A DNA stretch of 64,000 nt, taken from Fulvimarina pelagi HTCC2506 (GTDB lineage Bacteria > Pseudomonadota > Alphaproteobacteria > Rhizobiales > Rhizobiaceae). The stretch spans positions 1,185,839 through 1,249,838 of the forward strand of contig NZ_DS022272.1 of the NCBI RefSeq assembly GCF_000153705.1. Direction: 5' to 3'. Below are positions 7,716-52,566 of this stretch, in pieces; positions within the stretch are counted from its first letter, which is position 1, and each line of letters opens with the position of its first letter. Both the position numbers and the translations under genes were made by a program. The notes below the pieces were generated by a model. It was not told the origin of the DNA and ran no database searches. It saw nothing but the letters and a program-made list of their open reading frames with translations.

Positions 7716-9923
7716 ATGACCAGCGAACCTATCGATTCGGCTCGGAACGGCCCGTTCCTCCTGGAGCGGCGCCGGTTTATGCTCGTTCCGGGTCTTCTTG
7801 CGGTCTGCGGGGCGTTGATCTGCGGCGGCATTTCGTTCGTCGTCTTGATGGGGCTGACACCGATCGCGCCGACGGATGCCGTCGTAACTGTCGCGACGGC
7901 CGTTAACGGCCTTTTCGTGCTGCTCCTCGCCGGCCTTATCTGGCGCGAGGCCGCACGCATGTTTCGCGCACGCCGCCAGGGCCGTGCCGCCTCGCGGCTT
8001 CACGTGCGCATAGTGCTTTTGTTCTCGATTGTCGCGGCCATTCCGGCGATCCTTGTGGCGATCGTTGCTTCGATCACGCTCGACCTGGGGCTCGACCGCT
8101 GGTTCGAGATGCGGACCCGGGCAATCGTCGATTCTTCGATCAACGTCGCGCGCGCCTACGTCAACGAGAACGCCCGCAACCTGCAGGGTTCGACGCTGTC
8201 GATGGCCTACGATCTCGATCAGCAACGTCGGCTCTACGATCTTGATCCTCGCGGCTTCGAGAACTTCATGACAGAGCAGGCGCGGGGCCGTTCGCTCCTT
8301 GGCGCTCAGCTAATCGGCGAAGACAAGGAAGCCTTTCTCACCGCCGACGTCGAGACGGATCAGCCGCTTCCCGTTCCGCCAGACGATGCCATGCAACAGG
8401 CGATTGACGGCAATCTCGTCTTCATTCCGCCAGGCGTGACCAATCTTGTTGGCGCGATCATCAAGCTGCGGCAGCTGCCGAAAGCCTATCTCTATACGGT
8501 CCGAGCGGTCGACCCGCAGGTGCTTGCAGCCCTGCGACTAATGGAAGAACGCTCGGCTGAATATCAGAGCCTTCAGGACAACCGTTTCGGGCTGCAGCTT
8601 GCTTTTGCTCTTCTCTATCTCGGGATCGCACTGATCGTGCTTCTGTCTGCGATCTGGACCGGTATCGGCGTCGCCGACCGGCTGGTGCGCCCGATCCGTC
8701 TTCTGATGAGCGCCGCTGACGAGGTCTCGCGAGGCAACCTCGCCGTGTCTGTGCCGGTGCGGGCATCCGACGGGGATGTCGGATCACTGTCGAGCACCTT
8801 CAACAACATGACCCGGCAGCTGCAGAGCCAACGCGCGGAACTGGTGAATGCGCGCGATACGATCGACGAGCGTCGGCGCTTCATCGAGGCGGTGCTCTCC
8901 GGCGTGACCGTCGGCGTCATCGGCGTCTCACCCAAAGGCGCGATCTCGATGCTGAACCCATCGGCGGAACGCATACTAGGCACCGATTCCCGTTCCACGG
9001 TCGGCGTCCAGCTTCGGACGGCCTTCCCGGCCTTCGCCGCGATCCACGATGCCGCGGCGGCGTCGCATCGCTCCGAATATCAGGAGGAGATCCGGCTGCG
9101 CGTTCGTGAACGCGAGCGTACTCTTGCCGTCCGGATCACCAGCGCGGAAAAGAGCCGAGACGAACAGTCTAGCGTGGTGACCATCGACGACATCACGGAT
9201 CTCGTCGATGCTCAGCGTTCATCCGCCTGGGCCGACGTCGCTCGGCGCATCGCGCACGAGATCAAGAATCCTTTGACGCCGATCCAACTCTCGGCGGAGC
9301 GCATCCGTCGGCGTTATGGTAAGCGGATCGAGGATGATCGCGAAGTTTTCGACCGCTGTGTCGATACCATTGTGAGGCAGGTGTCCGATATCGGCCGGAT
9401 GGTCGACGAGTTCTCCAATTTTGCGCGAATGCCGAAGCCGACCATGGAGCCGACCGATCTGCGCGACGTGATCAAGGAAGCTATCTTCGCGCGGGAGATG
9501 GGTGATCACGGCGTGGTCTTTGAGAAGGACATTCCAGATGAGCCACTGATCGGCTCCTACGATACGCGGCTTCTTGGTCAGGCCTTCGGAAACCTGGTCA
9601 AGAACGCCGTGGAAGCCCTTGAAGGCGCTGGCATATCTCATGGCAAGATAACCGTTCGTGCCCGGCCCGGCGAGCGTCATCACGAGGTTTCGATCATCGA
9701 CAACGGGCAGGGTTTCCCAAAGGATGATCGAGATCGCCTGCTGGAACCCTATATGACGACGCGCGAAAAAGGCACGGGGCTGGGGCTCGCCATCGTTCGC
9801 AAGATCATCGAGGAACACGGCGGCACGATCGCGTTGGAGGATGCGCCCGGTCAGCCGTCGGGCGCGATGGTGCGCGTGATCCTGCCAGCGGGCAACACCA
9901 ACATTGACGACTTAAACGGCTAG
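7716..9923 (+). CDS. ntrY: Membrane sensor kinase NtrY
   Basis: Transmembrane histidine kinase partner of NtrX, associated in alphaproteobacteria with nitrogen metabolism, redox and envelope control. From the ATG at 7716 it has 735 residues. Three N-terminal membrane segments (about 22-48, 56-78 and 98-120) and a fourth at about 294-317 flank a periplasmic domain. HAMP (about 318-370), PAS (about 385-490), HisKA with His514 in RRIAHEIKNPLTPIQ, and HATPase follow (NLVKNAVEAL, GTGLGLAIV). The frame is open back to a TTG at 7656 and there is an ATG at 7677; 7716 is chosen because conserved NtrY sequence begins just after it, but its Shine-Dalgarno is weak and the start is uncertain. Confidence 0.92.
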   Translation: MTSEPIDSARNGPFLLERRRFMLVPGLLAVCGALICGGISFVVLMGLTPIAPTDAVVTVATAVNGLFVLLLAGLIWREAARMFRARRQGRAASRLHVRIVLLFSIVAAIPAILVAIVASITLDLGLDRWFEMRTRAIVDSSINVARAYVNENARNLQGSTLSMAYDLDQQRRLYDLDPRGFENFMTEQARGRSLLGAQLIGEDKEAFLTADVETDQPLPVPPDDAMQQAIDGNLVFIPPGVTNLVGAIIKLRQLPKAYLYTVRAVDPQVLAALRLMEERSAEYQSLQDNRFGLQLAFALLYLGIALIVLLSAIWTGIGVADRLVRPIRLLMSAADEVSRGNLAVSVPVRASDGDVGSLSSTFNNMTRQLQSQRAELVNARDTIDERRRFIEAVLSGVTVGVIGVSPKGAISMLNPSAERILGTDSRSTVGVQLRTAFPAFAAIHDAAAASHRSEYQEEIRLRVRERERTLAVRITSAEKSRDEQSSVVTIDDITDLVDAQRSSAWADVARRIAHEIKNPLTPIQLSAERIRRRYGKRIEDDREVFDRCVDTIVRQVSDIGRMVDEFSNFARMPKPTMEPTDLRDVIKEAIFAREMGDHGVVFEKDIPDEPLIGSYDTRLLGQAFGNLVKNAVEALEGAGISHGKITVRARPGERHHEVSIIDNGQGFPKDDRDRLLEPYMTTREKGTGLGLAIVRKIIEEHGGTIALEDAPGQPSGAMVRVILPAGNTNIDDLNG

Positions 9924-9939
9924 AGAGGCGACAAACGCT

Positions 9940-11304
9940 ATGGCATCGGACATTCTGATCGTCGACGACGAGGCCGATATTCGCGATCTGGTCGCGGGAA
10001 TCTTGGAAGACGAGGGTCATGAGACCCGTACGGCTGGAAACGCCGACCTTGCGCTTCAATCGATCGCCGATCGAGCGCCTCAGCTGATCTTTCTCGATAT
10101 CTGGCTGCAGGGAAGCCGGATTGACGGGCTTGACCTTCTGGACATGATCAAGACGCAGCATCCCGAAGTGCCCGTCGTCATGATCTCCGGCCACGGCAAT
10201 ATTGAAACCGCCGTCTCGGCGATTCGGCGTGGTGCATACGATTACATCGAAAAGCCGTTCAAGGCTGACCGCCTCGTTCTGGTCGCCGAGCGCGCCTTGG
10301 AGACCTCGAAGCTCAAACGTGAGGTCGTCGAGTTACGGCGCAAGTCCAGCGACTTCACCGAGCTGCTCGGCAAGTCACAGCCGATGAACCAGCTGAGAAC
10401 GGTGATCGACCGGGTGGCGCCGACTAACAGCCGGATCATGATTCTCGGCCCTTCCGGCTCCGGAAAGGAAATGGTTGCACGCGCCATCCATTCCGCATCC
10501 AATCGATCCGACGGCCCATTCATAGCGCTCAACGCGGCAGCGATCACACCGGAGCGGATGGAGATCGAACTCTTCGGCAACGAGACTCCCCCAGGCGTTG
10601 AACGCAAGATCGGCGCGCTGGAACAGGCCCATCGCGGCACACTCTATCTCGACGAAATCGCGGACATGCCGCGCGAAACCCAGAACAAGATTCTGCGCGT
10701 GCTGACTGAGCAATCATTCGAACGCGTCGACGGCACCAAGAAGGTTAAAGTCGATGTTCGAATCATCTCGTCCACCGCACAGAATCTGGAATCCTCCATC
10801 GCCGAGGGTTCATTCCGCGAAGACCTCTACCATCGGCTCGCCGTGGTCCCCATTAGCGTACCGCCGCTTTCTCAGCGCCGTCAGGACATCCCGCTGCTAA
10901 TCGAGGCCTTCATGAAACAGCTGAGCGAGCAGACCGGTATCAAGCCGAAACAGCTCAGCCCCGAAGCGCTGGCTGTGCTGCAATCCTCAGAATGGCCTGG
11001 CAACATTCGCCAGTTACGCAACAACATCGAGCGACTGATGATCTTATCGCGCGAAGGCGATGACGACGATACGATCTCGGCAGACATGCTGCCCTCGGAA
11101 GTCGGCGATATGCTGCCGCAGACGCCGAGCCAGTCGAACGGCCAGATCCTAGCGCTGCCGCTGCGCGATGCACGCGAGGTCTTCGAGAAGGAATACCTCG
11201 TCGCCCAGATCAGCCGCTTCGGCGGCAATATTTCGAGAACTGCGGAATTCGTCGGCATGGAACGCTCGGCGCTCCACCGAAAGCTGAAGTCGCTCGGGAT
11301 CTGA
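9940..11304 (+). CDS. ntrX: Response regulator NtrX
   Basis: NtrC-like response regulator paired with NtrY, 16 bp downstream of it. The 454 residues comprise a receiver (Asp53 as phospho-acceptor), an AAA+ domain with a Walker A variant GPSGSGKE, and a Fis-type HTH at the C terminus (GNISRTAEFVGMERSALHRK). The GAFTGA sigma-54 contact loop is missing: after ELFGNE the sequence runs straight to TPPGVERKIGALEQAHRG. Loss of this loop is known in several alphaproteobacterial NtrX/NtrC proteins and implies that it does not remodel sigma-54 holoenzyme but acts as an ordinary DNA-binding regulator. Confidence 0.95.
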   Translation: MASDILIVDDEADIRDLVAGILEDEGHETRTAGNADLALQSIADRAPQLIFLDIWLQGSRIDGLDLLDMIKTQHPEVPVVMISGHGNIETAVSAIRRGAYDYIEKPFKADRLVLVAERALETSKLKREVVELRRKSSDFTELLGKSQPMNQLRTVIDRVAPTNSRIMILGPSGSGKEMVARAIHSASNRSDGPFIALNAAAITPERMEIELFGNETPPGVERKIGALEQAHRGTLYLDEIADMPRETQNKILRVLTEQSFERVDGTKKVKVDVRIISSTAQNLESSIAEGSFREDLYHRLAVVPISVPPLSQRRQDIPLLIEAFMKQLSEQTGIKPKQLSPEALAVLQSSEWPGNIRQLRNNIERLMILSREGDDDDTISADMLPSEVGDMLPQTPSQSNGQILALPLRDAREVFEKEYLVAQISRFGGNISRTAEFVGMERSALHRKLKSLGI

Positions 11305-43888: not shown

Positions 43889-45046
43889 TTATCCGATGAT
43901 CGCGTGTGGGATGAACCGCGACAGATTTCTCGTAATTCGGCTTCTGTCCTCGCGCATGCCGAGACCGCAGCAGGTGTTGCCAACGATCCAGGTCCCGAGG
44001 ACGGCGTACTTGCCATCCTTTTCGAACAGTCTCGTCAACTCCTGAACAATGAAGCCTTCCTCGCCATAATTCCCGTCCGAGACTTCAGTCTCCAGACCGG
44101 CTTCGATGACCGTGATATTTTCGCCCTCGCGGGAGTGAAGGGGTTTCCTCACCGCATTCTTGAGATTCCCCGCGCGCGGATCGTCCGCGAAATAGGCGGG
44201 GAGAAGGTTGGGATGACCGGAAAAGCGTTCCCAAAGCAGTGGAAGCAGGCCCTTGTTGGAGAGGATCGCCTTCCAAGGCGGCTCGACGAACTGCGTCCGT
44301 GAGTGGGGAAGGTGCTCTGCGAAGGGCTCGCGCAGCATATCCTCCCATGGATAGAGCTTGAAACAGAGTTCGATCGTCCGGTCCTGCATGTCCGTATAGC
44401 GACCTTGATCGTCGACGCCGATCTCTCGCATGTCGAGAAGTTCGGTGCGGTGGCCGGCTTGAATGGCGCAGTCCATCAGATAGGCGGCAGTGCCGCGATC
44501 CTCGTCGCTCTCGGTATAGGCGGCGAAGTGGAAGATTGGCTCGTTCGAGAATTTCCGGAACGCCTCAATCAGCGTTTCCTGGATGGCATTGAACTGATCG
44601 GCGTCCTCCGGCAGGACGCCCCGTTCCACGTTGTCGGTTAGCCAATTGTACTGGAAATAGGCCGATTCGAAGATCGAGGTGGGCGTGTCCGCATTGTATT
44701 CCAGAAGCTTGGCCGGCCCGGTGCCGTCATAGGCGAGATCGAAGCGGCCGTAGAGATGGCGCTCCTGATCTTCAAAGGAGCGGCGGACGAGATCCTGCAT
44801 TGGCTCAGGGATCGCGAGCTTCGTCATCATCGCCGGATCGCGGATGACGTCTTCGGCGACGTCCATGCACATCTGATGGAGTTCCGCGCTCGGATCCTCG
44901 ATCGCTTCCTCGATTTCGGCTAGTGTGAAAACGAAGGCCGCGTCGTCGAGCCAATAGGGCTCTCCATACATTTCGTGAAAGCCGAAACCGACGGCTTCCG
45001 CCTTTTCGCGCCAGTCTTCGCGCTCTGGCAGACTGATCCGCTGCAC
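43889..45046 (-). CDS. Glutathionylspermidine synthase-like ATP-grasp ligase (YjfC/YgiC family)
   Basis: A 385-residue ATP-grasp enzyme of the glutathionylspermidine synthetase C-terminal family. The N-terminal half includes YGRFDLAYDGTGPAKLLEYN and ADTPTSIFESAYFQYNWL; the C-terminal half shows EPPWKAILSNKGLLPLLWE and YVxx-type GREGEN-like sequence (LHSREGENITV). The amidase domain of E. coli Gsp is absent. Family members join an amine or peptide to a carboxylate, but YjfC/YgiC have no proven substrate. It is the last gene of a five-gene minus-strand unit, 6 bp after the DUF1190 gene, in a PspA-linked cluster. Confidence 0.9.
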   Translation of the reverse strand: MQRISLPEREDWREKAEAVGFGFHEMYGEPYWLDDAAFVFTLAEIEEAIEDPSAELHQMCMDVAEDVIRDPAMMTKLAIPEPMQDLVRRSFEDQERHLYGRFDLAYDGTGPAKLLEYNADTPTSIFESAYFQYNWLTDNVERGVLPEDADQFNAIQETLIEAFRKFSNEPIFHFAAYTESDEDRGTAAYLMDCAIQAGHRTELLDMREIGVDDQGRYTDMQDRTIELCFKLYPWEDMLREPFAEHLPHSRTQFVEPPWKAILSNKGLLPLLWERFSGHPNLLPAYFADDPRAGNLKNAVRKPLHSREGENITVIEAGLETEVSDGNYGEEGFIVQELTRLFEKDGKYAVLGTWIVGNTCCGLGMREDRSRITRNLSRFIPHAIIG

Positions 45047-45052
45047 TTTACG

Positions 45053-45625
45053 TCAGCTGCCGAAAAAGCCCCGGGACGACGATCGTCCGCCGAAGCCCGA
45101 GCGCGAAACCGTGCGCGTGTTCACGTTCACAGGCCGCGAAACCCGTTGGCCGCCCTGTACTGCGCTCGTCACCGTCTGCCCGCCACGGGTCCGGTAGATC
45201 GGCGCGGAGTAGGTGTAGCTCGGCGAGGAACGGTAGTTCCGGTAGGCGGCGTAACTCGCCAGGTTGCCGATTGCCGAGGAGATCAGGTAGCCTGTCATAA
45301 AGGGGATGAAAAAGGAGCCTGCGCCATCATTGGCCTGCTGGTTGACGAGGTTACTCGTCTCCAAACAGCGGCCCTCGCCATATTCAGCCTCGCAAGCGGC
45401 CTGCCCGTCGAAGCGCGGAGCGTTCTTGAGGTGCTCGCTCAGCGCGGCCTGGTATTCGGCTTCGCAGATCTGAAGATCGACGCCGGACGCGGCGCACTCG
45501 GTGGGTGTGGAGAAGAGGGCTTCGGTCGGCGGATCCTCGCCGCAGCCAGTCAGTACCATTCCCGTCGCCGCTATAGTACCGAGGGTGAGGAGAGGGGGGC
45601 GTGCCCCGATCTTGCGCTTTCGCAT
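45053..45625 (-). CDS. DUF1190 (YgiB/YjfM-like) lipoprotein
   Basis: A 190-residue DUF1190 protein. The basic N terminus and hydrophobic stretch (LLTLGTIAATGMVLTGC) form a lipoprotein signal with the lipobox Cys about residue 28. Cysteine-containing segments (TECAASGVDLQICEAEY; AACEAEYGEGRC) characterise the family, and the C-terminal region is Ser/Tyr/Arg/Gly-rich (SRSGFGGRSSSRGFFGS). YgiB/YjfM always pair with the YgiC/YjfC ATP-grasp enzyme, and here too the two genes are 6 bp apart. A modified or cell-surface substrate of the ligase is one idea, not shown. Confidence 0.85.
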   Translation of the reverse strand: MRKRKIGARPPLLTLGTIAATGMVLTGCGEDPPTEALFSTPTECAASGVDLQICEAEYQAALSEHLKNAPRFDGQAACEAEYGEGRCLETSNLVNQQANDGAGSFFIPFMTGYLISSAIGNLASYAAYRNYRSSPSYTYSAPIYRTRGGQTVTSAVQGGQRVSRPVNVNTRTVSRSGFGGRSSSRGFFGS

Positions 45626-45638
45626 CCTTCCTTCCTCC

Positions 45639-46040
45639 TCAGTAGGTCATGCAGGCGGCGTTCAGAAGACCGACCGCGATGGAATTTCCGGCGCTCCAGA
45701 CACCTGCTGCGATCTCACCTTTGGTGATTCGCTCGTGCAGCTTCGTCATTGTCATGGACGCAATGAAGAAAGCTAGGATCTGGACGAGAACACCAATGAT
45801 CGCCCAGATAATGAAATCAATGATGGCGACGGAATTTTCAGCTGCAGACGACAAGACGATGCCGAATCCGATGATCGCGCCGAGATAGGCGAGTACGGCG
45901 GCCATGTTGCCTTCGCGGATCAGCGTTACCTCCTTGTGCGGGGTCAGCGCCGTATAGATCGCAGCAAAAAGGCCGTAGAGCACGAGGCCCAGAATGAAAT
46001 ACGCCAGGAAACTCGGCAGGCCTGAAACGTAACCGAACAT
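45639..46040 (-). CDS. DUF350 (YjfL-like) membrane protein
   Basis: A 133-residue integral membrane protein with four predicted helices (about 8-30, 45-68, 72-95 and 108-130). This matches DUF350, in which two tandem two-helix units are repeated. E. coli YjfL is encoded in the same gene order. Its function is unknown; association with PspA suggests a membrane-integrity or transport role. It lies 13 bp upstream of the DUF1190 gene. Confidence 0.85.
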   Translation of the reverse strand: MFGYVSGLPSFLAYFILGLVLYGLFAAIYTALTPHKEVTLIREGNMAAVLAYLGAIIGFGIVLSSAAENSVAIIDFIIWAIIGVLVQILAFFIASMTMTKLHERITKGEIAAGVWSAGNSIAVGLLNAACMTY

Positions 46041-46093
46041 CGTCCCTCCAGTCTCTTGTTAGAAAGCGGCACGACCAATAGCTGCGGTCGTGG

Positions 46094-46756
46094 TTAAACC
46101 CGTCTCACATCCGCGGCGCCGAGGCCATAGCCGAGGAGGAATTCGATCGAGCCCCCCTGCCGGGACGACCCCGCCGCCAGTTCGCGCTCGACATTGATGA
46201 GAAGCATCTCCTGGGTCCGGCCGACAGGTCTTGCGTAGAGCATGCAGGTCTGGTGGATGGCGCGTTTGCCACGTCCATCCTCGATGTCCTCGACGAACTC
46301 GACGAGGTCCGCGCGTTCCTCGCCCGCTCCCCAGAAGCGCTCGAAAAGGACGCCGTCCGCATCGTACCGAGCCTCGCCCACCATGCCGCGCGGGCCGATC
46401 CAGCGGTCCCACTCGGCCTGCCCGGCGGGCACGACGCTGTCCCAAGGATGATAGATGCTGACGTCGTCTATGGTGTCGCCGTAGCGGCCGCTTGCCGAAA
46501 GCACTTGGAGCAGCCGATCGTCGTCGTCATAATATCGGGACAGGACGGTGTTTGCGTCGAGTCTGGCCTCGCCGTATGCGACGCAAACGAACGTTCCGCC
46601 CTCGGGCAGTGCCATGCCGGGTTCGCCCGTCGCCGCATCTGCCTCCAGCGATAGAAGATCGAGTTCGAGTGCGCCGCCGATCGGAATACCGAGCGGGCCG
46701 CGTTCGTCGGGAAGGCCGGCGCCGTTGTCCTTCTTGCCGAAGAGAGAAAAGATCAT
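46094..46756 (-). CDS. DUF2491 (YjfK-like) cytoplasmic protein
   Basis: A 220-residue soluble protein of the DUF2491/YjfK family. Recognisable parts: an N-terminal KKDNGAGLPDERGPLGIPIG, SRYYDDDDRLLQVLSASG and a C-terminal SSRQGGSIEFLLGYGL. No catalytic motif is evident. It overlaps the K+ channel gene by 4 bp (ATGA), so the two are translationally coupled. YjfK is always encoded with a PspA homologue (YjfJ), here the gene at 48374. Confidence 0.85.
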   Translation of the reverse strand: MIFSLFGKKDNGAGLPDERGPLGIPIGGALELDLLSLEADAATGEPGMALPEGGTFVCVAYGEARLDANTVLSRYYDDDDRLLQVLSASGRYGDTIDDVSIYHPWDSVVPAGQAEWDRWIGPRGMVGEARYDADGVLFERFWGAGEERADLVEFVEDIEDGRGKRAIHQTCMLYARPVGRTQEMLLINVERELAAGSSRQGGSIEFLLGYGLGAADVRRV

Positions 46757-47811
46757 CTGCCAGCTCCCTCCATCGCCGACCAGTCGATCGCTCCTGCGTC
46801 GAGCCGGTTATCGCTGATATAGTAGATGGTGTCGCCCGAGGAGATCGGATCGTCTGCGGGGCAATTTAGGTCGACCTTGCCTGCGCGGCCGACACCCACC
46901 AACGTGGCGTTGCAGCTACGGCGAAGGCCGATAAGCGCATCGCCGTATCGGATCGGCGCTCGGCCTTCGGGCAAGAGCATGGAGAAGGCCGTGTCCGCGG
47001 TGCTGGCCGACAGAAGCAGCTTGGCCACCTGCGAAGAACCCGGATCGCGCGCTGCGCGTACGAGGAGTTCCGGCGATAGCGAGGTGATCGTTTCGATGCG
47101 GGCGGCCTGACGTTCTGCGATCTCGGCGGTCCGCTGATATTCGAAATAGGCAACGACATGAATGCTGCTGTTCAGCGTCGCGGAGACCAAGGCGGCGGCG
47201 AGTGTCTCATCATCGTTTTCGCCCCTCACGACGACGCCGCGCGCTCCCGAAATTCCGGCGCGTTCCAGTGCTTCGGGATCGGCGAGGCGCTCGGCACGGA
47301 CGAAATCAATCTGATCGGACATTGGATTCTGCGCCAGGCTTCGCGAAACGAGAACTGGCAAAGCCTCGTCCGACGCGCGTTCGCCGGAGAGCATCGAAAG
47401 AAGTTGCTGTGAAGCGCCCTCCTGCCAGCCGAGAACGATCATGTGGCCGACCCTGGTGCTAAAATCGCCTGCGCCTTGCATCCTCTTTCTCCAAACCCCG
47501 CTGATCCCCGAGAGCAGTTTGCCAAGAACCGCCGTGAAGATCGCGATAGCTCCGGGAATGACAAAAAACGCCGCGATAAGACGTCCTGCGGTGCCAGCCG
47601 GTGACAGATCACCGTATCCGACCGTCGTCGCCGTCACACCGTAATAGTAGATGTAGGTCGCGACGTCACCGGTTAGTCCGTCCTCCCCAACGATACCCAG
47701 CAGGATGTAGGAAACGAAGAGATGGGCAACGAAGAGAAAAAGGACCGCGCCCCAGGTCAGCTCTGCGATCGCGATATAGGCTCGGCGCGCGACCTTGAGG
47801 AACAGAGGCAT
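46753..47811 (-). CDS. Two-TM potassium channel with RCK/TrkA-type regulatory domains
   Basis: A 352-residue ion channel. Membrane helix one is at about 18-40 and helix two at about 73-97; between them lies the pore loop with selectivity filter TVGYGD at 63-68. After the pore, a TrkA-N-like (RCK) domain of about 108-230 begins HMIVLGWQEGASQQLL, and the C-terminal part (about 240-340) resembles TrkA-C. The MthK-like design suggests gating by a cytoplasmic ligand such as Ca2+ or nucleotide. The start at 47811 (AAGGA upstream) is chosen over 47838. It heads the minus-strand arm of the PspA cluster. Confidence 0.9.
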   Translation of the reverse strand: MPLFLKVARRAYIAIAELTWGAVLFLFVAHLFVSYILLGIVGEDGLTGDVATYIYYYGVTATTVGYGDLSPAGTAGRLIAAFFVIPGAIAIFTAVLGKLLSGISGVWRKRMQGAGDFSTRVGHMIVLGWQEGASQQLLSMLSGERASDEALPVLVSRSLAQNPMSDQIDFVRAERLADPEALERAGISGARGVVVRGENDDETLAAALVSATLNSSIHVVAYFEYQRTAEIAERQAARIETITSLSPELLVRAARDPGSSQVAKLLLSASTADTAFSMLLPEGRAPIRYGDALIGLRRSCNATLVGVGRAGKVDLNCPADDPISSGDTIYYISDNRLDAGAIDWSAMEGAGR

Positions 47812-47945
47812 CTCGCATCCTTGATTTCGCAGCCCCATCTAACCGGGGCCGCGAGGGCTGTCCTTTGAAGAGCTTCGATTGAACAAGCGCTCGCCGCTGA
47901 TGTAAAACCGGTCTCGAAACCGATTGCAAGAAAGGTCGTCCCGAC

Positions 47946-48377
47946 GTGGAACCGTGGAATCTCGCGAGCCTCACCGAGCTCTTTGCCTCCGATCCCGAAG
48001 AGTTGGGCGACGTCGACGTTTCCGTCGTCGAGGGAACGGATGTCCTGCGCGTCACGCTGAAGGAAAAGGGTGATCTCGACATCCTTGTTACGGCGAGCGG
48101 CGATCAGGTGTTGGCGAGTGTCGCCCTCGTGAAGGCAAGCGACCTGCCGCGCCGTGAGCAATTCGACCGGATGATCCTGTCGACTCACAAGCTCGTGCCG
48201 CTTTCGACCTTTGGCATTGTCAATTTCGACGGCGAGGAATGGTACGAGTTGTTCGGCTCGCTTTCGGCACTTTCGAGCGCGCATGCGATGATCGAGGAGA
48301 TCGCGGTTCTGGCGGAAAACGCTGTGGATGCAGCGAATATGATCGAAGAATGGAAGAATGGGGAGTTCGGCCTATGA
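47946..48377 (+). CDS. DUF2170 (YjfI-like) protein
   Basis: A 143-residue soluble acidic protein of the DUF2170/YjfI family, with VDVSVVEGTDVLRVTLKEK, ILSTHKLVPLSTFGIV and a helical C terminus (AENAVDAANMIEEW). YjfI proteins are encoded directly upstream of a PspA homologue in several gammaproteobacteria and their function is unknown. Here the stop codon overlaps the pspA-like start (ATGA). The 134-bp region shared with the channel gene is the divergent promoter of the whole cluster. Confidence 0.87.
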   Translation: MEPWNLASLTELFASDPEELGDVDVSVVEGTDVLRVTLKEKGDLDILVTASGDQVLASVALVKASDLPRREQFDRMILSTHKLVPLSTFGIVNFDGEEWYELFGSLSALSSAHAMIEEIAVLAENAVDAANMIEEWKNGEFGL

Positions 48378-49117
48378 GTGTCTGGGGCAAGCTATTCACT
48401 GCTGTGCGCGGCGGAGCCAACGAAGCGGCCGAAACCGTTGCCGACAAACAGGCACTGCGCATTCTCGACCAGGAGATTCGCGACGCAGAAAACTCGCTGC
48501 GTAAGGCGCGTTCCGATCTCGCCGGCATCATGGCGTCAAATAAACGGCTATCGAGAAAGATCGAGGAAGCGCGCGAGAAGGAACAGCGAGACACCGAAAG
48601 CGCGCGCGCAGCGCTTCAGGCCGGAAGGGAAGATCTCGCACGCGGCCTCGCCGACCGGATCTCCGGATTGCGCCAGGAAATCCATCGCGACGAAGGGGAA
48701 CTGGAGCGCATGCAAGCGAGCCAGGGCCAGATGATGCGGGCAATCCAGGACACTGAGCACCGGTTGCAGCAAATGCGGCGGGAAGTCGAGAACGTGAAGG
48801 CCAACGAGTCGCTGATCAAGGCTCAGTCGGCGATCGCTCACTCCCAGTCCGGCGTCAATTCCAAGCTTGGCAACGCCATGGACTCGCTTGAGCGCATCCG
48901 CAAGCGGCAGGATGAGACACGCGGCCGGATCGAGGCGGGGGCTGAACTCGCCGCCCTCGAGTCGGGCTCCGATCTCGATCGCCAACTGGCGGAAGCCGGC
49001 ATCGGCGGCAGTCGCTCGTCTTCGGCGGACGATGTTCTGGCTCAGATCATGGGTGAGTCCAAGCCGGCGATCGGCCAGTCACGCGATCCGCTCGGGATTG
49101 AACGCAAGGACAACTGA
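48374..49117 (+). CDS. PspA/IM30 family protein (YjfJ-like)
   Basis: A 247-residue PspA/IM30 (ESCRT-III-related) protein. The N-terminal MSVWGKLFTAVRGGANEAAE amphipathic helix and long coiled coil (about 20-190; EIRDAENSLRKARSDLAGI, ERMQASQGQMMRAIQDTEHR) are the family hallmark; a short C-terminal tail follows (DVLAQIMGESKPAIGQSRD). PspA binds stressed inner membranes and preserves the proton-motive force. The ATG at 48374 overlaps the DUF2170 stop; the longer open frame to 48239 is inside that gene. Confidence 0.9.
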   Translation: MSVWGKLFTAVRGGANEAAETVADKQALRILDQEIRDAENSLRKARSDLAGIMASNKRLSRKIEEAREKEQRDTESARAALQAGREDLARGLADRISGLRQEIHRDEGELERMQASQGQMMRAIQDTEHRLQQMRREVENVKANESLIKAQSAIAHSQSGVNSKLGNAMDSLERIRKRQDETRGRIEAGAELAALESGSDLDRQLAEAGIGGSRSSSADDVLAQIMGESKPAIGQSRDPLGIERKDN

Positions 49118-49160: not shown

Positions 49161-49937
49161 TCAGACGGTCGCGAGTTCGGCCTCCTCGTGCTCGGCCCAG
49201 GCTTCCGGATTGAAGTCAGGCAAGGCGTCGAATGCTGATTTCAGGGCATCGGACCATCCGGCGGAAATAGTCTTGTAATAGGGGTCTTCGCCGGTAATGC
49301 GCGTCCGAAGGCCGGCCTGGTAGCTGTCGCGCTCATAGAACTGGAGGTCGAGCGGCAGCCCGACCGAAAGGTTCGATCGAAGGGTCGAATCGAACGACAC
49401 CATCAGCAGTTTTGCGCACTCGGCCATGGACATCTTCCGGTCGTAGGTGCGGATGATGATGGGCCGACCGTATTTGTGCTCGCCGATCTGGAAGAACGGA
49501 TTATCCTCGCCGGCTTCGACGAAATTGCCTTCCGAGTAGATGTTGAAGAGGCGCGGCGGTGTCCCCTTGATCTGCCCGCCAAGGATGAACGAGCCGGAAA
49601 ACATCGGGTCGGGCGTCTGGGCCTGTGGGCCGGAAGCACCGCTGATGACCTCACGCAGAGTCTCGCCAACAAGCTTTGCGGTCTGGAACATTGTCGGCTG
49701 GGAAAGGATCGCCGGTTGACGCTCGGACGGGGCGACCGTTCGCTCGTCGAGCAGCGATATCGTTGCCTGGGTCGTAGCCAGATTGCCCGCTGACATGAGG
49801 CACAAAAAGCGCTCGCCCGGCACCTCCCAGGTCTTCATCTTCAGGACCGTGGAAATGTTGTCGATCCCGGCATTCGTCCGGGTGTCCGACATGAAAATGA
49901 GACCGGCATCAACGAGCAGGCCGACGCAATAGGTCAT
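49161..49937 (-). CDS. Anbu (ancestral beta-subunit) proteasome-like peptidase
   Basis: A 258-residue Ntn-hydrolase of the Anbu/BPH family, related to HslV and proteasome beta subunits. It begins MTYCVGLLVDAGLIFMSDTR, so Thr2 becomes the N-terminal nucleophile after Met removal, and the motifs SDTRTNAGID, LMSAGNLATTQATIS and FSGSFILGGQIKG fit the family. Anbu forms an open helical assembly; peptidase activity is weak or unproven in tested members. It is the last gene of an operon with an alpha-E protein and a circularly permuted ATP-grasp enzyme. The usual transglutaminase gene is missing between alpha-E and Anbu. Confidence 0.9.
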   Translation of the reverse strand: MTYCVGLLVDAGLIFMSDTRTNAGIDNISTVLKMKTWEVPGERFLCLMSAGNLATTQATISLLDERTVAPSERQPAILSQPTMFQTAKLVGETLREVISGASGPQAQTPDPMFSGSFILGGQIKGTPPRLFNIYSEGNFVEAGEDNPFFQIGEHKYGRPIIIRTYDRKMSMAECAKLLMVSFDSTLRSNLSVGLPLDLQFYERDSYQAGLRTRITGEDPYYKTISAGWSDALKSAFDALPDFNPEAWAEHEEAELATV

Positions 49938-50072
49938 GAAAAGGCTCCGCGAAGGGCGCGTTCACGAATGGGTTTGCACAGGCTTACGGTCCGCTGCCGG
50001 GCCGCCGCAATTGCACCTTCACCACGAAGACAGATTTATTCACACCGTCGACGACTTCATTACCGTGCTTAG

Positions 50073-51068
50073 TCAGGCGCTCTGGCTTTGCGACTGGCTC
50101 TGGTTAGCGGGATCGATGTCGGGGTAGAAGCGATAGTTCTCCGCGATCAGTCCCGAAACCTTGTTGTTGTCGATGATGAAATCCTCGAGAAACTCGTGCA
50201 GTCCGCTCGCCAGGACTTCGCGTACGGTGAGATTGGAGAGGCGCTCATAGATCATGTTGACGCGGGCGGCGCTCTCGTTCGGCGTTTCCGAGCCGCGGTC
50301 GAGATAGGACATCGAATCGCGCATCATGCCGTAGCAGTGACTCAGCGAGCGAGGCATCCGGCGATTCAGCATCAGGAAGTCGATGATGTTCGTCGCGGTC
50401 GGACTGGCGTCGTATTCCCAGCTGTAGGACCGGTGCGCCGAGACCGAGCGCAGGATCGACGACCACTGAAAGTTGTCGAGCGACGAGCCGATAGAAGAAT
50501 GTTCTGGCAGAAGCACCCAGTATTTCACGTCGAGGATGCGCGCCGTGTTGTCGGCTCTCTCCAGGAAAGCGCCAAGATGGCAGAAATCGAAGATCTCGTT
50601 GCGCAACATGGTGCCGTAGAAGGCGCCGCGGATCAGAGCACAGCGCGTCTTCACGAGGTCAAGCGTCTTGGGAAGGGTGCGATGATTGAGCGGGCCAGCG
50701 AGCGCAGTCCTGATCGTGAGATAAGTGTCGTTCGTCGCTTCCCAGAGCTCGCGGGTGAGGGCGGTACGCACCATCCGACCGTTCATCCGTGCCGTGTCGA
50801 TGGAAGAGCGTATCGAGGACGGATTGTCCTGATCGCGGATGAGAAAATCGATGATCTTGGTCTCGTCTAGTTCGCCATGCTTTTCCTTGTAGGGGTCTTC
50901 GACGCCGGCGGACACGAGGATCGACTCCCATTCGTCGCGATCTTCGACCGAGAGATTGGTCAATGAAATCCTGAGACCTGCGTCGACAAGACGTGCCATG
51001 TTTTCCGCTCGCTCGATGTAGCGGAACATCCAGAAGAGCCCGTTCGCCGTCCGTCCGAGAAGTGCCAT
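50073..51068 (-). CDS. Alpha-E domain (DUF403) protein
   Basis: A 331-residue all-helical alpha-E protein. The N terminus (ANGLFWMFRYIERAENMARL) is the characteristic segment; ESLLVxx-type helices and the conserved RRMPRSLSHCY and TVREVLASGLHEFLEDF follow. The ATG at 51068 with GGAAGGA upstream is preferred to 51098. Alpha-E proteins always accompany circularly permuted ATP-grasp enzymes and are predicted partners in peptide synthesis; no structure-based function is known. It follows the ATP-grasp gene by 85 bp. Confidence 0.88.
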   Translation of the reverse strand: MALLGRTANGLFWMFRYIERAENMARLVDAGLRISLTNLSVEDRDEWESILVSAGVEDPYKEKHGELDETKIIDFLIRDQDNPSSIRSSIDTARMNGRMVRTALTRELWEATNDTYLTIRTALAGPLNHRTLPKTLDLVKTRCALIRGAFYGTMLRNEIFDFCHLGAFLERADNTARILDVKYWVLLPEHSSIGSSLDNFQWSSILRSVSAHRSYSWEYDASPTATNIIDFLMLNRRMPRSLSHCYGMMRDSMSYLDRGSETPNESAARVNMIYERLSNLTVREVLASGLHEFLEDFIIDNNKVSGLIAENYRFYPDIDPANQSQSQSQSA

Positions 51069-51153
51069 GATTCGTCCTTCCGTGTCTCGCGGCTTCATCG
51101 CATCGGTTTGCGCGGGCCGCCTGTCATCCTGCCGTTGGTGCTTGGTTGCGACC

Positions 51154-52566
51154 TCAGTCGCGCAGCACCCAGGTGTCCTTGGTGCCGCCGCCTTGACTGG
51201 AATTCACCACCAGAGAGCCCTCCTTCAGCGCGACGCGTGTCAGGCCGCCCGGAATGATTCTCACTTTGTCCGAGACGAGTACGAATGGGCGCAGATCGAC
51301 ATGGCGCGGTGAGAGCTTGTCCTTCGCCAGGATCGGCACGGTCGATAGGGCAAGGGTCGGTTGCGCGATATAATTCTGTGGGTCTTCCTTGAGTTTCTTG
51401 GCGAAGGCCTCGCATTCGGCCTTGGTCGAGGTCGGGCCGACGAGCATGCCGTAGCCGCCCGAGCCGTGCACTTCTTTCACAACGAGGTCGGCGAGATTGT
51501 CGAGCACGTATCTGAGGCTGTCCTCCTCGGCGCAGCGCCAGGTCGGAACGTTTTCCAGCATGGCCGGCTTGCCGGTGAAGAACTCGACGATTTCCGGCAT
51601 GTAGGAATAGATCGCCTTGTCGTCCGAGATGCCTGTCCCCGGCGCGTTGGCGATCGTGACCGCGCCGCGCTTGTAGGCATCCATGATGCCCGGGATGCCG
51701 AGCATTGATTCCGGGTTGAAAGCTCTCGGATCGAGGAAGGCGTCGTCGATGCGCCGGTAGATCACATCGATCGGCACGTAGCCTTCGGTGGTTCGCATCT
51801 GAATGCGGCCGTCGATCTCGGCGACGTCCGAGCCCTCGATCAGTTCGACACCCATCTGGTCGGCGAGAAAGGAGTGCTCGAAATAGGCCGAATTGAAGAT
51901 CCCGGGCGTCAGTACGGCGACCCGAGGTTTGCCTTCGCACATCGGCGGCGCGACGGCTTCCAGCGAGCGGCGAAGATGGTGCGGATAGGTTTCTACCGGC
52001 CGCACCCGGTTCTGCGCGAACAGCTCCGGGAACATCTGCATCATCGTCTCACGGTTCTCTATCATATAAGAGACGCCGGAGGGGGTTCGGGCATTGTCTT
52101 CGAGAACGTAGAACTGGTCTTCACCCGTACGCACGATGTCGGTGCCGATGATGTGGGTGTAGACTTTGCCAGGAGGCGTAAAGCCGATCATCTGCGGTAG
52201 GAAGGCATCGTTATCTTCAAGAAGACGGGCAGGGAGGATGCCGGCTTTCACCACCTCCTGATCGTGATAGATGTCGTGCAGGAAAAGGTTCAGCGCCTCG
52301 ACACGCTGCTCGATGCCCTCAGCGAGCTTGTCCCACTCGTTCTTCGCCATGATCCGCGGCACCATGTCGAATGGGATCAGCCGTTCTGCAGCTTCCTGCT
52401 GGCCGTAAACATTGAAGGTGATGCCGGTGCGCCGGAAGAAGGTTTCAGCCTCGTTCGCCTTCGATGCCAGTTCGTGCGCGTCCTGATCCTTGAACCAGCC
52501 ATGAAAGCTTTCATAGGGCTGCCGTACCTCGTCTTGATTCAGCAACATCTCGTCGAACGGTGGCAC
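51154..52566 (-). CDS. Circularly permuted ATP-grasp ligase (DUF407/CP-ATPgrasp type)
   Basis: A 470-residue circularly permuted ATP-grasp protein. Segments recognised: FRRTGITFNVYGQQEAAERL, WDKLAEGIEQRVEALNLFLHDIYH, ARTPSGVSYMIENRE, and toward the end VHGSGGYGMLVGP and the Pro-Arg-containing LRPFVLVSD. It uses a GTG start at 52566 with GAAGGAG upstream. The family is predicted to form peptide bonds and may make small peptides or tag proteins. It is the promoter-proximal gene of the Anbu operon. Confidence 0.9.
   Translation of the reverse strand: MPPFDEMLLNQDEVRQPYESFHGWFKDQDAHELASKANEAETFFRRTGITFNVYGQQEAAERLIPFDMVPRIMAKNEWDKLAEGIEQRVEALNLFLHDIYHDQEVVKAGILPARLLEDNDAFLPQMIGFTPPGKVYTHIIGTDIVRTGEDQFYVLEDNARTPSGVSYMIENRETMMQMFPELFAQNRVRPVETYPHHLRRSLEAVAPPMCEGKPRVAVLTPGIFNSAYFEHSFLADQMGVELIEGSDVAEIDGRIQMRTTEGYVPIDVIYRRIDDAFLDPRAFNPESMLGIPGIMDAYKRGAVTIANAPGTGISDDKAIYSYMPEIVEFFTGKPAMLENVPTWRCAEEDSLRYVLDNLADLVVKEVHGSGGYGMLVGPTSTKAECEAFAKKLKEDPQNYIAQPTLALSTVPILAKDKLSPRHVDLRPFVLVSDKVRIIPGGLTRVALKEGSLVVNSSQGGGTKDTWVLRD

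Follow-up and report, generated by a model that had tools for sequence, protein, structure and literature searches.

The 64,000-nucleotide stretch analysed here (hereinafter the window; Fulvimarina pelagi HTCC2506, contig NZ_DS022272.1, positions 1,185,839 to 1,249,838 of the forward strand) contains seven genes in two divergent arms, spanning 43889-49117, which almost certainly constitute a PspA system of the proteobacterial "third group" in a divergent layout common to Rhizobiaceae and their relatives. The potassium channel of this cluster shares common descent with the other cluster genes; its place in the gene order is conserved and its absence is repeated. The cluster including the K+ channel was already published in 2024, and the cluster in the window is a further case with modest new detail: a section of Ravi et al. 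(2024; PMC11237479) describes a CesT/Tir-PspA third-group operon with an ATP-grasp ligase and a potassium channel. Of the papers searched, this was the only one to combine PspA, DUF350 and a potassium channel, and among the matches listed no title pointed to a second description of the cluster with the channel.

Gene content of the cluster

The seven genes were found at the places and in the orientations that a first-pass annotation of the window had given them (window sequence and open reading frames), and the proposed gene identities were borne out by Pfam scores that all exceeded the curated cut-offs. The features are as follows.

43889-45046, minus strand: YgiC/YjfC-type ATP-grasp amine ligase, 385 amino acids (Pfam GSP_synth, 487 bits, 6.9e-146)
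45053-45625, minus strand: DUF1190 (YjfM/YgiB) lipoprotein, lipobox LTGC at residues 25-28 (Pfam, 117 bits, 1.7e-33)
45639-46040, minus strand: DUF350 (YjfL) membrane protein, 133 amino acids (Pfam, 132 bits, 2e-38)
46094-46756, minus strand: DUF2491 (YjfK), beta-rich (Pfam, 177 bits, 3.3e-52); AlphaFold2 model mostly strands, mean predicted local distance difference test score (pLDDT) 88.2
46753-47838, minus strand: two-transmembrane K+ channel with RCK domain, filter TVGYGD (Pfam Ion_trans_2, 39 bits, and TrkA_N, 27 bits; MthK, PDB 3rbz, 7.2e-19); start codon at 47838 or 47811
47879-47907, plus strand: promoter-like element TTGRACA-N13-GATGTARAA, 5' of DUF2170, conserved in the clade
47946-48377, plus strand: DUF2170 (YjfI), GTG start, CesT/Tir-like chaperone fold by family (Pfam, 134 bits, 3.2e-39)
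48374-49117, plus strand: PspA/IM30 family protein (YjfJ type), 247 amino acids from the ATG at 48374 (Pfam PspA_IM30, 148 bits, 3e-43)

PspA is a membrane-remodelling relative of ESCRT-III. The assignment to the third group rests on a DUF2170 gene adjoining PspA, an ATP-grasp ligase related to glutathionylspermidine synthetase, the joint presence of DUF350, the DUF1190 lipoprotein and DUF2491, and a channel with a two-transmembrane pore, K+ filter and RCK domain. PspA_IM30 and GSP_synth each had a single match in the window's genome. The stop of the channel gene overlaps DUF2491, as had been annotated, in a 4-base ATGA, and the same overlap was present at the DUF2170/PspA junction.

Common descent and repeated absence of the channel

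Genomes with DUF2491 numbered 12 of 385 sampled from the class, 29 of 398 from the phylum, 2 of 61 from the order and 17 of 297 from the family; these samples overlap, and each includes the window's genome. Neighbourhoods were read at 51 distinct DUF2491 loci and, separately, at 80 ligase loci, the top-ranking of at least 587 relatives; this second set therefore leans to the window's kin. The two sets partly overlap and gave 67 full loci, counting E. coli K-12, or 64 after identical ligases were dropped. Hidden Markov models for this reading were built from the surveyed loci and the window proteins.

In the phylum sample, 25 of the 29 DUF2491 loci contained PspA, ligase and DUF2491 together, and the channel was present in 20 of the 25, one of which (L076) has an in-frame stop. 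The check proposed with the annotation, whether the channel occurs beside DUF2491 in this lineage only, thus came out in favour of a wider association. The full cluster was found at 16 of 17 loci in the family sample, 12 of them with the channel. Among all 51 DUF2491 loci there were 38 clusters, 29 with the channel, and 13 loci without a cluster within the stretch read; one of these 13 (L054) lies at a contig end and carries channel, DUF2491, DUF350 and DUF1190. The best 80 ligase loci comprised 28 full clusters (17 with the channel), 32 DUF1190-ligase pairs, 12 DUF350-ligase pairs, three DUF350-DUF1190-ligase sets, two channel-DUF350-DUF1190-ligase sets (Glaciecola), two lone ligases, and one DUF2170-PspA-ligase set on a 3.5-kb contig.

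In 43 of the 64 deduplicated full clusters (L076 counted as present), the channel gene immediately preceded DUF2491 on the same strand, and this was so in all three layouts encountered; the arrangement recurred wherever one locus had both genes. Fifteen one-direction loci had the channel and five lacked it. The divergent layout with the ligase on the DUF2491 arm, which is that of the window, had 20 with and eight without, and the divergent layout with the ligase on the PspA arm had eight of each. The channel/DUF2491 overlap was -4 at 23 of 23 window-layout loci with the channel, duplicates included, and variable in the other layouts.

A cluster tree was built from ligase, PspA and DUF2491, and a separate tree from the channels, with L076 left out; both are quick trees with several long branches. 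On the cluster tree, the layouts required two changes, the minimum possible. The window's layout formed one branch with a support of 100 (28 rows; Rhizobiaceae, Aurantimonadaceae and Devosia), and the one-direction layout formed one branch with a support of 96. Channel presence required at least 12 changes on the same tree, and E. coli grouped with the channel-bearing loci L073 and L074 at 100. The channel tree also placed the window's layout on one branch (support 100), as it did the other divergent, alphaproteobacterial layout (83); the one-direction channels were not one branch, because channels from outside clusters fell within them.

The channel therefore looks like an original member of the cluster, not a new addition, and E. 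coli yjfIJKLMC has most simply lost it. As the cluster tree is unrooted, we infer this loss from the same channel site in every layout and from the position of E. coli among channel carriers. The first-pass annotation had read the locus as the E. coli cluster rearranged with a K+ channel added. The lack of a channel in the E. coli K-12 cluster speaks for such an addition. However, the channel occupies the same site in gamma- and alphaproteobacteria, E. coli itself falls among channel carriers, and the set with the channel had been described in the section of PMC11237479 cited above. A lineage-specific insertion was rejected on the neighbourhoods, the cluster tree and the channel tree, and the reading as a whole is scarcely credible; the polarity of this plausible story is thereby corrected.

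The window's genus includes one locus with the channel (L092) and one without (L099), and the window and L092 set against L099 provide a genus-level pairing for comparing the channel's effect. At the alphaproteobacterial locus L076, the channel gene (9657-10646) is interrupted by an in-frame TAA, perhaps a case of ongoing loss. At nine other loci (L056-L063 and L102), DUF2491 was located inside long open frames of 395-849 codons, with DUF350 adjoining in seven of the nine and no PspA or ligase matches beside DUF2491. In viral contigs, no DUF2491 relative was found by the patterns of the window protein.

Functional reading of the two arms

The closest solved structures to the ligase were E. coli YgiC (PDB 7uk8, 1.9e-125) and YjfC (PDB 7uk6, 3.8e-111), and its identity to YjfC was 45%. 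The window ligase alone scored higher against YgiC (422 bits) than against YjfC (375 bits), and a profile of 13 cluster ligases scored higher against YjfC (620) than against YgiC (600). Homology to these proteins extends over the full length and includes the catalytic motifs, GRFD at 100-103 and EYNAD at 116-120; R101, D103, E116 and N118 were invariant in 13 of 13 aligned cluster ligases and align with Gss and trypanothione synthetase. No amidase domain was matched in the 385-residue protein. The statement that the product of the ligase has no assignment no longer holds where the E. coli homologues are concerned, since YgiC and YjfC are reported as peptide-spermidine ligases in the title of Pederick 2023 (cited in PMC12568646) and RefSeq names E. 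coli YjfC accordingly.

The window's genome, which is 98.94% complete, was searched for polyamine synthesis families. AdoMet_dc (AdoMet decarboxylase) and Spermine_synt_N (spermidine synthase) gave no match at cut-off, and nspC gave a weak match only (28.7 bits versus a cut-off of 409). A homospermidine synthase was present (3.7e-246 to PDB 4plp). Because no spermidine-synthesis match was found and this is the only triamine synthase found, homospermidine appears to be the likeliest native amine of the ligase, although spermidine may also be taken up. This provides an amine that can be tested on the ligase family, whose members in E. coli reportedly use spermidine; glutathionylhomospermidine has already been proposed for hss-gss clusters in a passage of PMC9992855.

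The channel resembles MthK in a two-transmembrane pore and RCK domain over 300 residues, and all 55 channels checked, a set from which L076 was excluded, had the filter motif. The calcium site of MthK, which we take to be D184, E210 and E212, aligned with R, Y and E in the window channel, and all three residues together were seen by eye in 0 of 12 rows of the channel alignment. As this site is not kept, calcium gating through an MthK-type site is unlikely.

With moderate confidence, we consider the best explanation to be a third-group PspA system with a conserved gene set and a two-arm membrane/cation mechanism; the mechanism taken by itself is put forward only tentatively. DUF2170 and PspA would act at the damaged inner membrane, and the second arm would adjust cytoplasmic cations by resetting K+ and free polyamine. 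The ligase would join a polyamine, here probably homospermidine, to a small peptide and so lower free polyamine, while K+ would pass through the channel, controlled by a cytosolic ligand that is not Ca2+ at the MthK site. DUF350, DUF1190 and DUF2491 would be the membrane, lipoprotein and probably cytosolic partners, respectively. That ion balance and polyamine would be controlled together when the membrane is stressed is a plausible idea. A more specific version, in which the ligase would make a peptide-homospermidine conjugate and either the conjugate or free polyamine would be the RCK ligand that gates the channel, is a long shot; if true, a K+ channel tied to PspA and gated by polyamine would, on leakage of the membrane, exchange one cation inside the cell for another.

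Several findings weigh against the two-arm explanation. The channel was absent from 21 of the 64 deduplicated loci. Its profile matched in 31 of the 398 phylum genomes, 20 times inside the cluster and 11 times outside it, so that cluster and channel are each dispensable to the other. Nine of the 11 genomes with an outside copy belong to one family (f203; L184-L186 and L189-L194); in L185, the one locus of this family examined, the channel lies near tol-pal genes, nadA and UPF0149, and in L187 it lies beside a threonine dehydratase gene. The two Glaciecola loci (L165, 6868-10161; L179, 6866-10161) contain a four-gene channel-DUF350-DUF1190-ligase unit with no PspA, DUF2170 or DUF2491 match within the stretch read, which indicates that coupling to PspA is not obligatory. 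Further, NCBIfam gave no name for the genome's homospermidine synthase.

These findings bear on two other explanations. The channel could be a loosely attached housekeeping K+ channel in the operon, functionally unconnected to either PspA or the ligase, as would fit its many presence changes on the cluster tree, the copies beside nadA or the threonine dehydratase gene, and the longer end branch of the window channel (0.52 versus 0.09 for ligase, PspA and DUF2491 of the window). Its position and strand are nevertheless constant in all three layouts, the -4 overlap is kept in the window's layout, and it stays with DUF350, DUF1190 and the ligase in Glaciecola even where PspA is missing; we regard loose attachment as rather unlikely. 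Alternatively, two separable modules, DUF2170-PspA for membrane repair and channel-DUF350-DUF1190-ligase for cation/polyamine balance, could answer the same stress with no direct coupling. The Glaciecola unit, the DUF1190-ligase and DUF350-ligase pairs counted among the best 80 ligase loci, and the separate arms in alphaproteobacteria are all in line with this possibility, but the ligase sits on the PspA arm in the other alphaproteobacterial layout (16 of 64 loci), which breaks the division; the two-module explanation is a doubtful one.

It is also conceivable, but quite improbable, that what the ligase modifies is a protein or a peptide tag, rather than its making a small conjugate; a passage of PMC6376114 cites this tagging idea for Anbu-type operons. 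Genes for Anbu, alpha-E and a circularly permuted ATP-grasp protein do adjoin PspA, on the minus strand at 49161-52566 in the window and at 3886-7311 in L099. However, within the stretch read, this neighbour was present in the window and L099 only and in none of the other 49 DUF2491 loci or the 80 top-ranking ligase loci (of at least 587), and the close E. coli homologues of the ligase have reported peptide-spermidine activity, as given in the title cited above. The models for the Anbu set were built from two sequences each. Anbu operons usually include a transglutaminase gene, according to the same passage; in a scan limited to these genes, there was no room for one between them in the window or L099. 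Owing to its confinement to these two loci, a functional link of the cluster to the Anbu set was rejected and the set was treated as a local neighbour.

The element at 47879-47907 lies on the DUF2170 strand, stops 38 bases short of the start of DUF2170 and resembles a promoter that would serve the PspA arm. Its pattern had an exact match in the window and none in 100 shuffles, and this was the sole exact copy in the genome. The element was found at the same junction in eight of nine members of the window's clade, with a variant seen by eye in L091. A regulon for it was rejected, as five further genome sites had two mismatches versus three sites for the reversed control pattern.

An apparent small regulator gene lying between the two arms of other alphaproteobacterial loci turned out to be an in-frame N-terminal extension of DUF2170, approximately RxRxWRxxRRxxGxVKxExWVPxxxxxxI, which the window protein does not have. 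It was carried by L053, L055, L076, L077, L079, L080, L083, L084, L128, L137, L156, L160, L166, L171 and L181, and is possibly DNA-binding. Upstream palindromes (criterion: at most 3 of 100 shuffles) were found for five of 14 long DUF2170 forms versus three of 50 short ones, with L128 counted as short in spite of its extension. The extended protein gave a weak structural model, with a pLDDT of 72.7 overall and block means of 35-73 across residues 1-70, and a Pfam scan of one extension gave no match.

E. coli YjfK (DUF2491) has been suggested as an outer-membrane porin in a passage of PMC12492005. This role was rejected for the window protein, in which no signal peptide was seen by eye. Among solved structures, none was significantly related to its model (best E of 0.012 with Foldseek; best Z of 3.6 with VIA-align, root-mean-square deviation 4.7, 96 aligned).

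Comparison with known systems

Compared with the operon of Ravi et al. (2024), the window has the same families, channel included. Its arms are divergent, whereas gene directions and channel frequency are not stated in the section of PMC11237479 concerned. The P. aeruginosa bac operon (BacA, DUF2170; BacB, PspA), as described in part of PMC10948618, shares the DUF2170-PspA pair; section 3.6 of that paper gives DUF2170 a CesT/Tir fold. The BacA model has 206 positions, of which the window DUF2170 matches 64-200 only.

The channel is like MthK in pore and RCK domain and differs in the calcium site given above, which is not kept. The ligase has the R-x-D and E-x-N motifs in common with E. coli YgiC/YjfC and matches them over its full length, but these reportedly use spermidine and the window's genome encodes homospermidine synthase with no spermidine-synthesis match at cut-off.

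As had been annotated, the E. coli K-12 yjfI-J-K-L-M-C genes correspond to six of the families at the window's locus and keep their order (Pfam; E. coli K-12 annotation). They run in one direction with no channel annotated, whereas the window's cluster is divergent and has one. E. coli yjfIJKL were strongly upregulated in heat-evolved strains, according to a passage of PMC12492005. Both the heat-adaptation and the ligase work were done on the E. coli cluster, which is most simply a reduced form.

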